Assembly (NCBI GenBank): GCA_947627365.1
Contig: CANQVT010000017.1
Location: forward strand, 1 to 47,320
DNA length: 47,320 nt
Reading direction: 5' to 3'
From: an uncultured Lachnospiraceae bacterium
GTDB lineage: Bacteria > Bacillota > Clostridia > Lachnospirales > Lachnospiraceae
The translations under genes were made by a program, and so were the position numbers. Every line of letters begins with the position of its first letter. Within the stretch, counting starts at the first letter, position 1. The notes under the pieces are model-generated. The model worked only from the letters and a program-made list of their open reading frames with translations. It made no database searches and was not told the origin of the DNA. Shown in pieces: positions 20,691 through 45,734 of the stretch.

Positions 20691-20720
20691 TCTTCGTGTA
20701 TAGTTCACTATACACGAAGA
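20691..20720. promoter_or_regulatory. Perfect 30-bp palindrome, likely operator
   Basis: Arms TCTTCGTGTATAGT (20691-20704) and ACTATACACGAAGA (20707-20720) are exact reverse complements around a 2-bp centre. The site lies between the HAD gene start and the divergent ferritin-like gene. It includes TATAGT- and TATACA-like -10 sequences, so a bound dimer could block either promoter. There is no T-run on either side, which argues against a terminator. Confidence 0.6.
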
Positions 20721-20757: not shown

Positions 20758-20786
20758 TTGTCGTTTTGCAAAAATTCGCGTATAGC
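20758..20786 (+). promoter_or_regulatory. Possible promoter of the ferritin-like gene
   Basis: TTGTCG (20758-20763), 17 bp, TATAGC (20781-20786). The -10 is imperfect. The start codon is about 55 nt downstream. Confidence 0.4.
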
Positions 20787-29128: not shown

Positions 29129-30808
29129 TCAGCTCTCCTTCAAGTCGTCCTGGTCGAACGCCGTCTCGATCGGCTTTCCTGCCGGCACCATCGGAAACAC
29201 CTTGTCGTCGCAGTCAATGATGCAGTCGAGTACGATCGGTTTTCCGAGCGATAACGCCTTCTCAAAGGCGGGAGCGAACTCCTCCTTCTTCGTCACGCGG
29301 ATGCCCTCTGCGCCCATCGCCTCGGCAAGCTTCACAAAGTCGACCGCGTCGTTCAAGACCGTCTGCGAATAGCGCTTTCCGTAAAACAAGGTCTGCCACT
29401 GGCGGACCATACCCAGAACATGGTTGTTGACGACAACCTGAATAACCGGGATATTGTAGCGCGCCGCGGTCGCGATCTCATTCATATTCATGCGGAAGCA
29501 GCCGTCGCCCGCGATGTTGACGACGATCTTGTCCGGATTCGCCACCTTCGCGCCGATCGACGCGCCGAGACCGTAGCCCATCGTGCCGAGACCGCCGGAG
29601 GTGATCAGCGTACGCGGCTTCGAATATTTGTAATACTGCGCCGCCCACATCTGATGCTGTCCGACCTCCGTGACGATGATCGCATCGCCCTTCGTCAGGC
29701 GGTAGATCTCTTCAATGATATACGGCCCAGTCAGCCCTTCAGTATTATATTTCAGCGGATATTTCGTCTTCAGCTCCGTGACGGACGCATCCCACTCGTC
29801 GTGGCGATGCTCCTCGATGCGCGCGTTCAGCCGCTTCAGGACTTCCTTTACATCCCCGATGATCGAGGCGTCCACGGTGATGTTCTTGTTGATCTCCGCC
29901 GGATCCACATCGATGTGGATAATCTTCGCGTGTCTTGCGAAGCTCTTCGCGCTGCCAATCACACGGTCGCTGAAGCGCGCGCCGATCGCGATCAGCAGGT
30001 CGCAGCCGGTCACGCCGAGGTTGGACGCCTTAGTCCCGTGCATACCGAGCATTCCGCAGTACAGCTCGTTGTGTCCGTTGTACGCGCCCTTGCCCATCAG
30101 GGAATCCGCAACCGGAGCGTGCACCTTGTTTACGAACTCCTCCAGCTCTTCCTGTGCGCCGGAGATCACGGCTCCGCCTCCGACGAAGATAAACGGCTTC
30201 TTCGCCTTGTTGATGAGCTTCACCGCCTGTTCAAGGTCGTCCTCGCGGATGTATTCGCTGCTTCGCACAATCGGCTCCGGCTTCATCGGCTCGTAGTCCG
30301 TCGTGGCCGCGGTCACATCCTTCGTGATGTCGACAAGCACCGGGCCGGGCCGCCCTTCCTGCGCGATCTGGAATGCCCAGCGGATCGTGTCCGCGAGCTT
30401 CGTGATATCCTTCACGATAAAGCTGTGTTTTGTGATCGGCATTGTGACGCCCGCGATGTCAATCTCCTGAAAGCTGTCCCGGCCGAGCATCGTCACTGCC
30501 ACATTCGCCGTGATTGCCACAACCGGCACCGAATCCATGTACGCGGTCGCGATACCGGTGACAAGATTCGTCGCGCCGGGGCCAGAAGTCGCCATGCAGA
30601 CGCCAACCTTTCCGGTAGAACGCGCGTAGCCGTCCGCCGCATGCGCCGCGCCCTGCTCGTGCGAGGTCAGGATATGACGGATCTCGCCGCTATGCTTGTA
30701 TAATTCGTCATAAATATTGAGAATCGTGCCTCCCGGATAGCCGAACACGGTGTCCACGCCCTGCTCTTTCAGGCACTCGATCACGATCTCCGAACCGTTC
30801 AATTTCAT
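29129..30808 (-). CDS. ilvB: Acetolactate synthase large subunit
   Basis: The 559-aa thiamine-diphosphate enzyme condenses pyruvate to acetolactate or with 2-ketobutyrate for branched-chain amino acids. The catalytic Glu is in SHEQGAAHAADGYAR, the FAD-binding region is central, and GDGCFRMNMNEIATA is the ThDP/Mg motif. No small regulatory subunit gene (ilvN) and no ilvC are in the window. The gene is the last of leuB-ilvD-ilvB and is separated from ilvD by 165 bp that hold a copy of the structured repeat. A weak AAAGGA site lies upstream of the ATG. Confidence 0.95.
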   Translation of the reverse strand: MKLNGSEIVIECLKEQGVDTVFGYPGGTILNIYDELYKHSGEIRHILTSHEQGAAHAADGYARSTGKVGVCMATSGPGATNLVTGIATAYMDSVPVVAITANVAVTMLGRDSFQEIDIAGVTMPITKHSFIVKDITKLADTIRWAFQIAQEGRPGPVLVDITKDVTAATTDYEPMKPEPIVRSSEYIREDDLEQAVKLINKAKKPFIFVGGGAVISGAQEELEEFVNKVHAPVADSLMGKGAYNGHNELYCGMLGMHGTKASNLGVTGCDLLIAIGARFSDRVIGSAKSFARHAKIIHIDVDPAEINKNITVDASIIGDVKEVLKRLNARIEEHRHDEWDASVTELKTKYPLKYNTEGLTGPYIIEEIYRLTKGDAIIVTEVGQHQMWAAQYYKYSKPRTLITSGGLGTMGYGLGASIGAKVANPDKIVVNIAGDGCFRMNMNEIATAARYNIPVIQVVVNNHVLGMVRQWQTLFYGKRYSQTVLNDAVDFVKLAEAMGAEGIRVTKKEEFAPAFEKALSLGKPIVLDCIIDCDDKVFPMVPAGKPIETAFDQDDLKES

Positions 30809-30854
30809 CCTGTATCTATCCTTTCTCTTCTATGTTCAAAATGTTTACACAATA

Positions 30855-30980
30855 GGCCGTGCACCTCGAAAAGCCTGCGGCTTTCCTCGGTCGCGGGCGT
30901 TCGCCCTATAAAGATGTTGTCCCGTGAAATTGCCTGCAAGCAGGCATTTCCCGCTTCAACATCTTTGCACGGCTCATTGC
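30855..30980 (-). repeat. Structured repeat copy A between ilvD and ilvB
   Basis: Read on the minus strand (the transcribed strand), the element opens with GCAATGAGCCGTGCA, whose GCCGTGCA pairs with TGCACGGC at its far end. Inside are a nested hairpin (outer arms of 10 bp at 30910-30919 and 30957-30966; inner GAAAT-GCCTGC-TT-GCAGGC-A-ATTTC with one bulged A), then GGGC-GAAC-GCCC, then a hairpin with AAAGCC/GGCTTT arms. Length is about 125 bp, close to the first copy at 41075-41205. The stop codon of ilvD lies within its first 10 bases. Confidence 0.75.
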
Positions 30981-32656
30981 TTTCGCGAATTCAGCGGATT
31001 GATCAGCACCGCGCCCTTATTTCCGGAGGTCACGAGCGACGCATAGCGTGCCAGATAACCGGTCTTGATCTTTGGCTCGCGCGGCTGCCACTTCGCGCGG
31101 CGCGCCGCCATCTCCTCGTCGCTGATCGCAAGCTCGAGCTTACACTCCGGAATGTTGATACGGATTGTGTCGCCCTCCTCGACAAGCGCGATCGGTCCGC
31201 CGACTGCGGCCTCCGGGGAGACATGTCCGATGGAAGCGCCTCTGGAAGCCCCGCTGAAACGACCGTCCGTGATCAGGGCAACAGAGGAACCGAGACCCAT
31301 GCCAGCGATCGCTGACGTCGGATTCAGCATCTCGCGCATGCCCGGGCCGCCCTTCGGACCCTCATAGCGGATCACGACGACGTCGCCTGCGACGATCTTA
31401 CCACCGAGGATTGCGGCGATCGCGTCCTCCTCACAGTCGAACACACGCGCCGGACCCTCGTGTACCATCATCTCCGGCACCACTGCGGAGCGCTTCACAA
31501 CGCCGGAGTCCGGGGCAAGGTTGCCCTTGAGGATCGCCAGTCCGCCGGTCTCGCTGTACGGATTGTCGATCGGACGGATGACCTCCGGGTTCTTGTTCGT
31601 ACAACCCTCTATGTTCTCTCCAACTGTCTTGCCTGTGACTGTCATGCAGTCCAGGTTCAGCAGGTTCTTCTTCGTCAATTCATTCATGACCGCGTACACG
31701 CCGCCGGCCTCGTTCAGATCCTCGATGTAGGTCGGACCTGCCGGGGCGAGGTGGCAGAGATTCGGCGTCCTTGCGCTGATCTCGTTCGCGATGTCGACGT
31801 CGAGCTCGACGCCTGCCTCATGCGCGATCGCCGGGAGATGCAGCATGCTGTTCGTCGAGCAGCCGAGCGCCATGTCGACCGTCAGCGCGTTCATGAAAGC
31901 CTTCTCGGTCATGATGTCACGCGGGCGGATATCCTTCTTCAGAAGCTCCATGATCTGCATGCCCGCCATCTTGGCCAGACGGATACGCTCAGAGTAGACG
32001 GCTGGGATCGTGCCATTGCCCTTTAAGCCCATGCCGAGCACCTCGGTCAGGCAGTTCATACTATTCGCCGTGTACATACCAGAACAGGAACCGCAGGTTG
32101 GGCAGACCTTCTCCTCGTATTCCGCGACTTCCTCCGCGGTCATCTTGCCCGCGGTGTGCTCTCCGACTGCCTCGAACATGCTGGAGAGGCTTCTCTTGCG
32201 CCCCTTCAGATGCCCGGCAAGCATCGGGCCGCCGCTGACAAAGATCGTCGGGATATTCAATCTGGCCGCTGCCATCAGCAGACCCGGGACGTTCTTGTCG
32301 CAGTTCGGAATCATGACAAGCGCGTCAAACTGATGTGCGATCGCCATACACTCGGTGGAATCCGCGATCAGGTCGCGCGTCACGAGCGAATATTTCATGC
32401 CGACATGTCCCATCGCGATGCCATCGCAGACCGCGATCGCCGGGAACTCCCTCGGCACGCCGCCCGCCATCGCGACGCCGAGCTTGACCGCCTCTGTGAT
32501 CTTGTCCAGGTTCATATGACCCGGCACGACTTCATTGTAGGAATTGACAATACCGATCAGCGGGCGCTTCATCTCCTCCTCCGTCAGTCCCAGCGCGTGG
32601 AACAGGGAACGGTGCGGCGCCTGCTGAATGCCCTTTTTCACTGCATCACTCTTCAT
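30974..32656 (-). CDS. ilvD: Dihydroxy-acid dehydratase
   Basis: The 560-aa iron-sulfur enzyme makes 2-keto acids for valine, isoleucine and leucine. The cluster cysteines are in [23 protein letters not shown] and an earlier Cys; other blocks are the GNGTIPA region and [19 protein letters not shown] near the C-terminus. GAGGAGG precedes ATG 32656. It is 117 bp downstream of leuB. The final codons and stop (C-A-A-T-G-A) overlap the start of repeat copy A, so the insertion may have supplied the present stop codon; the C-terminus still has the expected length. Confidence 0.96.
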
Positions 32657-41011: not shown

Positions 41012-41040
41012 AGTATAAATGGAAATTTTTAATCTTGCAA
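41012..41040 (-). promoter_or_regulatory. Promoter of tgt
   Basis: On the minus strand TTGCAA (41035-41040), 17 bp, TATACT (41012-41017). The -35 is palindromic and is also the -35 of the divergent activase promoter. The leader is about 115 nt. Confidence 0.5.
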
Positions 41041-41064
41041 GCACTAAGATAAATGTCGTATAAT
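41035..41064 (+). promoter_or_regulatory. Promoter of the activase gene
   Basis: TTGCAA (41035-41040), 18 bp, a perfect TATAAT (41059-41064). Transcription would begin near 41071, just before the first repeat copy, giving a leader of about 360 nt made almost entirely of the repeat array. Confidence 0.55.
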
Positions 41065-41074
41065 GTCCGCGTAA

Positions 41075-41205
41075 GCAATGAGCCATGCCAGGATGGCGGA
41101 AGACAAAGTGCCTGCTTGCAGGCAACTTTGTCAGACGACAGACTTGTAGGGCGAATGCCCGTGATCGAGCCGGAGCAAAGCGAAGGCGAGATCGGCATGG
41201 CTCAT
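41075..41205 (+). repeat. Structured repeat, array copy 1
   Basis: The copy is closed by a perfect 12-bp inverted repeat, ATGAGCCATGCC (41078-41089) and GGCATGGCTCAT (41194-41205). Inside are hairpin 1 (41102-41132: GACAAAGT-GCCTGC-TT-GCAGGC-A-ACTTTGTC, one bulged A), hairpin 2 (41149-41160: GGGC-GAAT-GCCC) and hairpin 3 (41163-41193), closed by GATC/GATC with GCC/GGC inside and G-A pairs between. It is about 128 bp. Copies 1-3 fill most of the 541-bp gene-free stretch 40892-41432, which otherwise holds the two promoters. Confidence 0.8.
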
Positions 41206-41265
41206 GAGCCGGGCGAATGCCCGTGACCGAGAAAGCCGAAGGCTTTCGAGGGCAGGCACGGCTCA
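41204..41265 (+). repeat. Structured repeat, array copy 2 (short form)
   Basis: TGAGCC (41205-41210) pairs with GGCTCA (41260-41265). Hairpin 1 is missing. Hairpin 2 is GGGC-GAAT-GCCC (41211-41222). Hairpin 3 has AAAGCC (41232-41237) and GGCTTT (41241-41246) around GAA, a different sequence from copy 1 at the same place. Confidence 0.75.
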
Positions 41266-41391
41266 GAGCCCGTAACGTCTGCTCGCAGACAGTTTCACGG
41301 GACGGTGGATTTATAGGGCGAATGCCCGTGATCGAGCCGGAGCAAAGCGAAGGCGAGATCAGCACGGCTCAGATCCGGGCGGATGCCCGCA
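41266..41391 (+). repeat. Structured repeat, array copy 3 plus trailing fragment
   Basis: GAGCC (41266-41270) pairs with GGCTC (41366-41370). Hairpin 1 (41269-41301) has CCCGT/ACGGG and AAC-GTCTGC-TC-GCAGAC-A-GTT, with the same bulged A but a changed stem. Hairpins 2 and 3 follow as in copy 1. A trailing hairpin 2, CGGGC-GGAT-GCCCG (41376-41389), ends the array 42 bp before the activase start. Confidence 0.75.
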
Positions 41392-41432: not shown

Positions 41433-44400
41433 TTGTCTACAAATACATCAGCAGCAAATTCCATCCACACACTCGGAATCGACATCGGCTCCACGACGGT
41501 CAAGGTGGCTGTGCTAAGCCCTTCCCGGGAGCTCTTGTTCTCTGACTATAAGCGTCATTTCGCGAACATCCGCGAGACGCTGTCCGAGTTGATCAGTGAG
41601 GCAGCGAAGCTGCTCGGCGATGTTCGGGTATCCCCCGTCATCACCGGCTCCGGCGGACTCGCGCTTGCCAACCATCTGGAAATCCCATTCGTTCAGGAGG
41701 TGATCGCGGTCGCGTCCTCTCTGGAGCAGTACATACCCCAGACGGACGTAGCGATCGAGCTGGGCGGCGAGGACGCCAAGATCATCTACTTTGAGAACGG
41801 CAACGTCGAACAGCGCATGAACGGCATCTGCGCGGGCGGCACCGGCTCCTTCATCGACCAGATGGCCTCGCTCCTGCAGACGGACGCGGCCGGGCTGAAC
41901 GAGTACGCGAAGAACTATTCTTCCCTGTATTCGATCGCGGCGCGCTGCGGCGTGTTTGCGAAATCCGATATCCAGCCGCTGATCAACGACGGCGCGACGA
42001 AGGAAGACCTCTCCGCCTCCATTTTCCAGGCGGTCGTGAATCAGACGATCAGCGGTCTTGCCTGCGGCAAACCGATCCGCGGACATGTCACGTTCCTCGG
42101 CGGTCCGCTCCACTTCCTGTCCGAGCTGCGGCAGGCATTCATCCGCACGCTTCATCTCGACAGTGAGCACGCGATTGAGCCGGAAAATTCCCACCTGTTT
42201 GCCGCGATTGGTTCCGCGCTGAACGCAAAGCCGGAAGTGAACACGACGCTCAGCGCGCTGCAGGAGAAGCTCTCCGGACCGATCCACATGGAATTTGAGG
42301 TCGCGCGCATGGAGCCGCTGTTCGCCTCCCAGGAGGATTACGACCACTTTATCGCGCGCCAGAGCTGCCACCGCGTGGCGACCGGAAGCCTTGCCGAGTA
42401 CAAGGGCAACTGCTATCTCGGCATCGACGCAGGCTCCACGACGACGAAGGCCGCGCTCGTCAGCGAGGACGGCACGCTTTTGTACTCTTTCTACAGCAAC
42501 AACAACGGCAATCCACTGCGCACGACGATCACGGCGGTTCAGGACATCTACCGACAGCTGCCAAAGGACGCGCGGATCGCCTGGTCCTGCTCGACGGGCT
42601 ACGGCGAGGCGCTCATCAAGGCCGCGCTCCTGCTCGACGAGGGCGAGGTTGAGACAGTCTCGCACTACTACGCCGCTTCGTTCTTTGATCCGGAAGTCGA
42701 CTGCATCCTCGACATCGGCGGTCAGGACATGAAGTGCATCAAGATCAAAAATCACACGGTTGACAGCGTTCAGCTCAACGAGGCCTGCTCCTCGGGCTGC
42801 GGCTCCTTCATCGAGACATTCGCAAAGTCCCTAAACTATTCTGTGCAGGATTTCGCGAAAGCGGCGCTTTTCGCAAAGCATCCGATCGATCTCGGCACGC
42901 GCTGCACCGTGTTCATGAATTCCAAGGTGAAACAGGCCCAGAAGGAAGGCGCGGAGGTGTCCGACATCTCGGCCGGGCTTGCCTATTCCGTGATTAAAAA
43001 CGCATTATATAAAGTCATCAAGGTGTCCGACGCCTCCGAGCTCGGACGCCACATTGTCGTGCAGGGCGGCACCTTCTACAACGACGGCGTCCTGCGAAGC
43101 TTCGAGCGCATCGCGGGCTGCGAAGCGATCCGCCCGGACATCGCCGGCATCATGGGCGCGTTTGGCGCGGCTCTGATCGCGCGCGAACGCTACAAGGAGG
43201 ATGCTCAGACAACGATGCTTTCCAGCGAGCGCATTGACGCGCTGCAGTACACGACGACGATGGCGAAGTGCAAGGGCTGCACGAACCAGTGCCGCCTTAC
43301 GATCAACCGTTTCTCCGGCGGCCGCCAGTACGTCAGCGGCAACCGCTGCGAGCGAGGCATTGGCAAGGAGCGCAACAAGGATCATGTGCCGAACCTGTTT
43401 GAGTTCAAGAACAAGCTGCTCTTCTCCTACGAACCGCTTCCGGAGGACGAGGCGGAGCGCGGCATCGTCGGCATCCCGCGTGTCCTGAACATGTACGAGA
43501 ACTACCCGTTCTGGTTCCGCTTCTTCACGGAGCTGAAGTACCGGGTGATCCTCTCGCCGCCGAGCACGCGCAAGATTTACGAGCTCGGCATCGAGTCCAT
43601 CCCGAGCGAGTCGGAGTGTTACCCGGCGAAGCTCGCGCACGGTCATGTGGAGTGGCTGCTGCGCAAGGGCATCAAGTACATATTCTATCCGTGCATCCCG
43701 TATGAGCGCACGGAGTTCGCGGACGCGCCGAACCACTACAACTGCCCGATCGTCACCTCGTACGCGGAGAACATCAAGAACAATGTGGAAGGACTGCGCG
43801 ATCCGTCCATCCGTTTCGAGAACCCGTTTATCGCGTTCACGAATCTGGATACGGTGACAAACCGCTTAAAGGACGCGTTCCCGGACATTCCGGCAAACGA
43901 GGTCATCGCTGCGGCGAAGGCCGGCTGGGAGGAGCTTGCCCACACGCGCGAGGCAATGTATCAGAAAGGTCAGGAGACCTTGAAATATCTTGAGGAGACC
44001 GGACGCCACGGGATCGTGCTCGCGGGCCGCCCCTACCATATCGACGGCGAGATCAACCACGGCATCCCGGAGCTGATCAATTCCTTCGGCATGGCGGTGT
44101 TGACCGAGGACTCGATCTCCAATCTGAGCCCGGTGGAGCGCCCGTTGATGGTGCTCGATCAGTGGATGTACCACAGCCGTCTCTACGCGGCGGCAAACTT
44201 TGTCAAAACACGCGAAGATCTTGACCTGATCCAGCTGAATTCCTTTGGCTGCGGGCTGGACGCGGTCACGACGGACGAAGTCAACGATATCCTCTCGAAT
44301 TCTGGCAAAATCTACACCTGCCTGAAGATCGACGAGGTCAATAATCTGGGCGCCGCGAAGATCCGCATACGCTCCCTGATCGCCGCGATCCGCGTGCGCA

Positions 44401-45734
44401 CACAGCATGACCTGGAACCGCGCAGGATCGTCCCGGCGAACATCAACCGTGTCATCTTCACGAAAGAGATGCGCAAGGAGTACACAATCCTCTGCCCGCA
44501 GATGTCCCCGATCCACTTCCGCATGCTGGAGGCGGCGATGAACGCGAGCGGATATCATATCGAACTGCTCAGAAACGATAACCGCAAGGCGATCGATACG
44601 GGATTGAAGTACGTCAACAACGACGCCTGCTATCCGTCCCTGATGGTGGTCGGACAGGTGATGGACGCCCTGCTCTCCGGGAAATATGACCTGAGCCGAA
44701 CGGCCGTGATCATGACGCAGACCGGCGGCGGCTGCCGCGCGTCGAACTACGTCGGTTTCATTCGCCGCGCATTGCAGAAAGCCGGCATCCCAAACGTCCC
44801 GGTCATCTCGCTGAACCTGAGCAGTCTCGAGAGCAATCCCGGCTTCACACTCAGCTACCAGCTCATTAAGCGCTGCATGTTCGCGCTTGTGTTCGGCGAC
44901 ATTTTCATGCGCTGCCTCTACCGCATGCGCCCGTATGAGAAAGAGCCGGGCTCTGCGAACGCGCTCTTCCATCGCTGGGAGGACCGCTGCTGCGAGTTTG
45001 TCTCCGGCAAGCCGTCCTACACCGCGTTTAAAAAAATGTGCCGTGAAATCATCCACGATTTTGACACTCTTCCGATCACCGACGAGCAGAAGCCGAAGGT
45101 CGGCGTGGTCGGCGAGATCCTCGTGAAATTTATGCCGGCGGCAAACAACCATCTGGTCGATCTTCTGGAGTCAGAGGGCGCGCAGGCAGTCGTCCCAGAC
45201 CTGATGGACTTCCTGCTCTACTGCTTCTACAATCAGAACTTTAAGAGCGAATACCTCGGAACAAAGAAAAAATCCGCAATGATCGCGAACTTCGGAATTT
45301 ATGTCCTTGAAAAGCTTCGCTCCGCGGCCGCGTCAGAGCTGGAAAAAAGCATTCACTTCGACCCGCCCACCCAGATCTGGCGTCTGGGCGACATGGCGAA
45401 GGACATCGTCTCGCTCGGCAATCAGACCGGCGAGGGCTGGTTCCTGACCGGCGAGATGCTCGAGTTGATCCACTCCGGCGTCAACAATATCGTCTGCACG
45501 CAGCCGTTCGCCTGCCTGCCGAACCATGTGGTCGGCAAAGGCGTCATCAAAGAATTGCGCCGCCAGTACCCGCTTTCGAATATCGTCGCGATTGACTACG
45601 ATCCGGGCGCCAGCGAAGTCAACCAGCTCAACCGCATCAAGCTGATGCTCTCCACCGCGCAGAAGCGGCTAAAAGAAGCAGACACAGCGACAGGCTCAGA
45701 AGCGAAAGCTGAAGCCGCAGCGTCGAACTCATAA
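41433..45734 (+). CDS. 2-hydroxyacyl-CoA dehydratase activase, fused multidomain form
   Basis: The 1433-aa protein starts at TTG 41433 with AAGGAGG 8 bases upstream; the frame upstream crosses the repeat array. Two ASKHA ATPase (BcrA/BadF/HgdC-like) domains lie in tandem: GIDIGSTT at residues 15-22 with [14 protein letters not shown], and [13 protein letters not shown] at about 328 with [10 protein letters not shown] and [15 protein letters not shown] Cys-rich link (CKGCTNQC, about 613) leads to a DUF2229 domain and an HgdB-like C-terminal region with [13 protein letters not shown] and further cysteines. Small HgdC proteins drive ATP-dependent electron transfer to radical dehydratases; these fused forms are common in Clostridia but their substrate is unknown. 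No dehydratase subunits or CoA-transferase are adjacent. C-rich on the plus strand (42481-42540: 12 G, 20 C). Confidence 0.88.

Follow-up and report, generated by a model that had tools for sequence, protein, structure and literature searches.

The window analysed here is a stretch of 47,320 nucleotides from an uncultured Lachnospiraceae bacterium (GenBank assembly GCA_947627365.1, contig CANQVT010000017.1, positions 1 to 47,320 of the forward strand), in which copies of one foldable element lie at two places (Table 1). Ahead of an hgdC-like gene, a full copy (copy A) begins 5 nt behind a TATAAT and is followed by a short unit, a truncated copy and a remnant hairpin; at the ilvD-ilvB junction, one full copy provides the ilvD stop codon (...NSRKQ*). 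Genes were called with a hexamer-trained caller, which replaced a longest-ORF caller that gave doubtful antisense genes, and the homology check of the calls covered four genes of the window. Copies were searched for with R1, a covariance model of the element comprising 46 pairs.

Table 1. Positions of the element copies, their parts and the adjoining genes in the window
Feature	Position	Strand	Evidence
ilvB, acetolactate synthase large subunit, downstream gene	29129..30808	-	TIGR00118 742 bits
Full element copy between ilvD and ilvB	30852..30985	-	R1 139.6 bits
ilvD, dihydroxy-acid dehydratase, upstream gene, 3' end overlaps element	30974..32656	-	TIGR00110 801 bits
hgdC promoter-like site	41035..41064	+	-35-like TTGCAA 41035-41040, 18 nt, TATAAT 41059-41064
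Full element copy A, four-way junction, predicted first part of hgdC leader	41070..41205	+	R1 140.3 bits, E 1.4e-33
Arm 1 of copy A, long variable hairpin, cap CTGCTTGCAG, G.A/A.G mismatches	41089..41145	+	Alignment columns 20-76
Arm 2 of copy A, GGGC-GAAT-GCCC	41149..41160	+	Alignment columns 80-91
Arm 3 of copy A, with a GA/GA internal loop between its lower stem and upper hairpin	41163..41193	+	Columns 94-124, hand-placed
Short unit in tandem, with closing stem and arms 2 and 3 but without arm 1	41204..41265	+	Repeat comparison, fold
Third copy, truncated, shortened arm 1	41266..41372	+	R1 match 41237-41372, 56.2 bits (rearranged/truncated)
Arm-2-like remnant hairpin CGGGCGGATGCCCG, between last copy and hgdC start	41376..41389	+	Sequence
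Downstream gene, hgdC-like, acyl-CoA dehydratase activase	41433..45734	+	TIGR00241 229.7 bits; 1433 codons, TTG start

The initial annotation had described four nested-hairpin repeats here, and all four are present; they show the listed stems, a bulged A and both versions of arm 3. Its closing arms GAGCC/GGCTC do not hold for the copy at 30855, which closes with GGCC instead of GGCTC, and its third copy, drawn to 41391, ends at about 41372 and has a shortened arm 1. When each was compared with 200 dinucleotide shuffles, fold z-scores were -7.2 for 41075-41205, -6.3 for 30855-30980 and -3.9 for the short unit at 41204-41265, which gave no separate R1 match in the window. The third copy (41266-41371), with its shortened arm 1, folds weakly (z -2.2, with 7 of the 200 shuffles as good).

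From 11 full copies, the element was resolved as a cloverleaf of about 136 nt, with a closing stem P1 and three arms set round a four-way junction. Arm 1 is long and variable with a CUUG-type cap, and arm 2 is short (GGGC-GAAN-GCCC); arm 3, which was added to the RNAalifold structure by hand, carries a GA/GA loop in 68 of the 113 copies tested, many of the remainder being paired through. In some far copies arm 1 looks terminator-like by eye. Changes on both sides were present in 17 of the 34 RNAalifold pairs of these 11 copies.

The proposal that covariation reflects selection on structure found support in larger copy sets, where covariation was strong by shuffle and slide controls, used in place of R-scape. 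Both alignments were fitted to R1, hence lean towards the structure, and gave standard pairs in 92.8% of pair cells for 88 distinct model-aligned copies and in 90.3% for 91 distinct copies from named genomes. Cells altered on both sides numbered 584 against a shuffle mean of 168 in the former and 1058 against 310 in the latter; neither these counts nor the covariation scores were reached by any of 500 shuffles, and the covariation signal was lost when the partner was slid by 1-3 columns. Two other measures stood out less in the 91-copy set, namely the number of pairs showing change (2 of 500 shuffles) and the number of pair types (16 of 500). In the named set, which for the arm-1 and orientation counts includes some genomes of the window's own genus, many arm 1s are less than 70% identical to any other and are still long hairpins. 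Template-switch correction of quasi-palindromes could yield paired changes without selection.

For wobble counts, arm 1 was realigned with strand-symmetric scoring in 154 of the 166 non-identical copies assembled below. Read on the sense strand, its mismatches comprised 36 G.T and 15 A.C in 91 genus copies and 44 and 10 in 63 named-set copies (overall 80 and 25). Summed over helices, the model-fitted alignments gave G.T:A.C ratios of 147:39 and 112:23, with the excess of G.T present in P1, in arm 1 and in arms 2/3 of both. Such an excess is as predicted if selection acts on the sense strand, whether this works as RNA or as a folded single strand; strand-biased deamination is an alternative, since C-to-T change on the non-template strand could favour G.T over A.C. 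Arm 1 further contains 463 G.A and 2 C.T mismatches, because a G.A/A.G step is conserved.

The search for further copies that had been suggested recovered many more. In the window's own genome (G000), R1 marked 29 places at E<=1e-3; the matches number 33, but 4 only echo another match on the reverse strand. The genus and order surveys, like that of RF01699 below, used stricter filters by which weak matches were lost: R1 matched 36 of 47 genus genomes and gave no match under these filters in the other 11, and it matched 91 of the 294 genomes of the order, in 51 of 144 genera. Carriers among the matches listed include Claveliimonas bilis and records of Lachnospira, Mediterraneibacter, Anaerotignum, Butyrivibrio and Parablautia. 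A pattern scan of named carriers gave at least 80 loci among 114 stretches seen; its pattern fixes GGGC/GCCC, and arm 2 therefore could not vary in that scan. Neither an exact pattern search of IMG/VR nor a BLAST search of copy A against phage and plasmid collections gave a match, both being searches that would miss distant copies.

For analysis of placement, 185 copies were assembled (80 of 93 and 80 of 90 matches from two scans and 25 of 45 own-genome matches), leaving out second matches in the same locus from the two scans and tandem, reverse-strand or weak matches from the own genome. Removal of 19 with an identical element sequence left 166 copies, corresponding to 115 loci distinct by flank. 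A TATAAT-like hexamer lies exactly 5 nt upstream in 49 of the 162 copies used for the offset test (40/115 loci), the mean for each of the other offsets from 6 to 60 nt being 0.84 loci, and 3 nt upstream in a further class of 10/115 loci. Matches of four or more of six positions to a -35 element were found in 36 of 64 cases, compared with 8.9 expected from shuffles. With the promoter classes assigned ahead of the stop class, the left end of the element falls at an upstream stop codon in 35/115 loci and directly behind a T-run in 12/115, and no placement class fits 18/115. In L057, L062, L151 and L298, all of the promoter class, the element is at a stop codon as well, and the hexamer may therefore be there by chance. 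Counted by copy, a co-oriented upstream stop lies within -11 to +13 nt in 57/166. The copies share a left border, TTYCR before CGAAAGC, which stands out behind T-runs and in the 5-nt promoter class and is fainter at stop codons. Runs of C (CCCC) were noted immediately ahead of the promoter-placed L129, L131, L159, L115, L098 and L013, a recurrence that may be due to chance. In one T-run locus, ahead of a leuA-like gene, a T-box match precedes the element by about 30 nt, and tRNA-like 3' ends closely precede four copies by eye (L096, L385, L390, L404).

Neighbouring genes, identified by eye from their ends, include ilvB, leuA, aspS, asnS, valS, glnA, tuf, gapA-pgk-tpi, rpsJ-rplC, smpB, rbfA and more, and the functions downstream, also assigned by eye, are varied (amino-acid synthesis, tRNA synthetases, glycolysis, transport, secretion and others). 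In L145, L119 and L114, elements lie between gapA and pgk, and in some genomes also before tpiA (gene names by eye). A classical riboswitch or pathway-specific leader was rejected, as the downstream genes are not of one pathway. T-box and other leader regulators share with the cloverleaf family a structured 5' leader; the family is unlike T-box-type leaders in having no common pathway and in its additional occurrence downstream of stop codons and of tRNA-like ends.

Where the genes on both sides run the same way, 74 plain copies are sense and 7 antisense, or 51:3 by locus. Outside the 166-copy set, 40 further far-genus loci gave 25 sense and 4 antisense between co-directional genes, less strict than 51:3. 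Extended inverted repeats are present in 23 of the 166 copies, and 22 of these 23 come from the window's genus; they occur in both directions (5 sense and 8 antisense loci between co-directional genes), and 6 of the 23 have TTCGTGTTTAG/CTAAACACGAA-like ends on both sides. The features of a MITE, namely terminal inverted repeats and orientation-free insertion, are found in this subfamily, not in the plain form. It is very improbable that the whole family is an ordinary MITE- or REP-like palindromic DNA repeat with an RNA-like fold as by-product. The subfamily with its extended inverted repeats would fit such a repeat, as would other repeat elements with TTCGTGTTTAG/CTAAACACGAA-like ends in the same genome; the sense orientation of plain copies at 51 of 54 loci, which the inverted-repeat subfamily does not share, and the strand-specific preference for G.A over C.T and G.T over A.C in arm 1 argue against it. 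The initial annotation had named a palindromic mobile element with by-product folding as the result that would count against it, and this survives in part, for the inverted-repeat copies; it is countered by the common plain form, mostly sense, with conserved G.A mismatches and, read in sense, G.T far above A.C. The family appears to combine mobility with selection for structure.

Signs of copying include an inverted-repeat pair in G023 (L259/L247, 99.3% identical) and a plain pair between G000 and G060 (L024/L242, 97.8%), each with unrelated flanks; the best plain pairs with unrelated flanks within one genome are about 90% identical. An empty-site search by flanks gave, besides ilvB and hgdC, many tandem-repeat self-matches; candidate sites were too diverged, and no exact target duplication could be read from them.

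At hgdC, the element is present in 7 of 30 genus loci, and GTCGTATAAT is kept without it in 7 of the other 23 (by eye). Since this promoter is kept without the element in relatives, the element most simply reached an existing start site, by gain rather than loss. Among five carriers, the seven pairs listed above a 78% identity cut, below which fell three pairs with the window copy, have 60-nt upstream flanks that are 97-100% identical and elements that are 81-94% identical, arms 1 and 3 differing between carriers as paired modules. Either rapid paired evolution or exchange among copies could account for these changed arms.

At ilvD-ilvB, 30 genus loci were compared, and an intact element was found in the window's genome only; of the other 29, 2 hold weak, internally deleted remnants of a decayed element, 2 a different foldable insert and 25 none. 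Being intact in one locus and a weak remnant in two, the element is dispensable there. The other foldable insert (L194 in G009 and L198 in G060) has the left end TTCGTG and lies at the gene junction that the cloverleaf occupies in the window's genome.

It is possible, though rather unlikely, that the family is a selfish element from which the host gains nothing, its folded sense strand (as ssDNA or RNA) being the substrate of a putative trans-acting enzyme and the fold being selected at the transposition step. Its targets would be DNA opened by transcription, that is, promoter bubbles, terminator pauses and the uncovered non-template strand after stop codons, which explains placement and orientation as well as an RNA module does; presence, absence and decay at hgdC and ilvB, the fixed distance to the TATAAT-like hexamer, the shared left border and the copying of one subfamily in both directions would also follow. 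Against such an element, the hgdC promoter of 7 genomes holds copies in which the fold is kept and the arms are changed, and the mover that it needs was not found in a search for Y1 transposase (PF01797) in 47 genomes and in 30 Y1 loci; inspection by eye of three elements with TTCGTGTTTAG ends revealed no target duplication either. PF01797 matched in 25 of the 47 genus genomes. None occurred in the element-rich G023, G017, G060, G003 and G016 (40, 29, 22, 21 and 18 element matches), and 1 to 3 occurred in each of G000, G005, G012 and G061 (33, 21, 19 and 19), that of G000 being partial. A repeat mobilised by IS200/IS605 or RAYT (PATE/REPIN) was not supported, as five of the richest genomes lack Y1 and the 30 Y1 loci searched lack the element.

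The remark that no named RNA motif is known to fit was borne out in Rfam 15, where no family reached the gathering score at the elements of the window and 17 element loci; matches away from them were a tRNA in the window and a T-box and another tRNA in the 17 loci. A 421-base stretch around copy A gave no Rfam match even at E<=5, and the literature search found no paper that looks like a description of the family. The closest known family is Clostridiales-1 (RF01699), which shares the four-way plan, a similar size, a variable long arm 1 with a GCUUGC-type cap, several copies per genome and the same order. RF01699 differs in its P1 (UGAUACC/GGUAUCA) and in its own consensus for arm 2 (AUGAG/CGAAU) and arm 3, to which the cloverleaf family does not conform. 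In the table of Weinberg et al. 2010 (PMC2864571), RF01699 was rated probably an RNA and probably not cis-regulatory.

RF01699 matched in 91 of 294 order genomes, in 77 over the cut-off. At 28 RF01699 loci, no single hexamer offset stands out, with a TATAAT-like hexamer within 13 nt in 10, and 6 start at a co-oriented stop codon. The RF01699 model gave no match at its 48-bit cut-off in the window or 17 element loci and none at E<=0.5 in 20 own-genome and 13 far element loci, and in the reverse test 30 RF01699 loci held no significant R1 match, the best having an E of 0.1. Six RF01699 matches were found in the own genome, five over the cut-off and one being L448 (G000:C26:8905-9071), all at places other than those of R1. 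One far copy, L104, gave a full-length RF01699 match of 41.7 bits, below the cut-off (E 3.9e-8 in a 261-base search); microRNA models also match L104, and the match may therefore rest on its long perfect hairpin. That the elements are a true subgroup of RF01699 is improbable: the shared plan and cap and the match at L104 favour it, and the failure of each search among the other family's loci speaks against it. Since, L104 apart, the models do not find each other's members, the family was not filed as RF01699; it is probably a separate class related to it.

BOX, RUP, ERIC/CREE and REP/REPIN are dispersed, modular, foldable intergenic repeats able to enter transcripts. The present family has a covarying cloverleaf, placed mostly in sense and at transcription start points, features that those repeats are not known to share.

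With slightly better than even confidence, we read the elements as a mobile RNA module of 5' leaders and intercistronic regions, spread across the order, whose fold is selected on the transcribed strand. The promoter-like sites suggest that the elements are transcribed: promoter copies would become the very 5' end of an mRNA, and operon-internal copies an intercistronic leader. A stable fold there could serve as a structural module of mRNA ends that guards against 5'-to-3' decay, defines processing and separates neighbouring cistrons; a ligand-specific riboswitch is not proposed because the neighbouring genes share no pathway. The family would spread as copies are made at further transcript boundaries and as existing copies undergo exchange or gene conversion; the inverted-repeat subfamily, almost all of whose examined copies are from the window's genus, would move in either direction. 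The great diversity of neighbour genes counts against the RNA module, being what a selfish element too would give.

Tentatively, the family may represent a kind of mobile element whose cloverleaf sense strand, oriented with transcription, inserts precisely where transcription starts or where transcripts or reading frames end, and becomes the first nucleotides of host mRNAs, its arms then being rewritten by exchange among copies with the fold held. To our knowledge, no mobile element of such a kind has been described in bacteria. The family is of interest as an apparently mobile module, selected for its shape, that would turn itself into the start of many mRNAs; it occurs in almost a third of the order genomes surveyed, yet the tested loci gave no Rfam 15 match reaching the cut-off, and it links to a motif listed in 2010. 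Its single-nucleotide registration to -10-like boxes makes it testable how a repeat finds a start site and whether the host uses the resulting 5' cloverleaf.

Several minor observations concern other repeats and composite copies. Exact TTCGTGTTTAG sites number 18 in the own genome, compared with 1 for the reversed control, and opposed TTCGTGTTTAG-type ends span 326, 512 and 475 bp in L225, L235 and L238, respectively. A palindrome of the window, TTCGTGTATAGTTCACTATACACGAA at 20693-20718 (and 20775-20785), resembles a minimal version of a second repeat class, whose ends are TTCGTGTTTAGTTCAC/GTGAACTAAACACGAA. Insert modules that are variants of one sequence recur inside arm 2 of L057, L058 and L300, and another insert recurs inside arm 3 of L061, L062 and L157, as if elements nest. 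Short units (arm 2, arm 3 and closing stem) stand in tandem behind a full unit in L088, L099, L100, L129 and L135, and such tandem short units sometimes preserve an open reading frame of repeated peptides.
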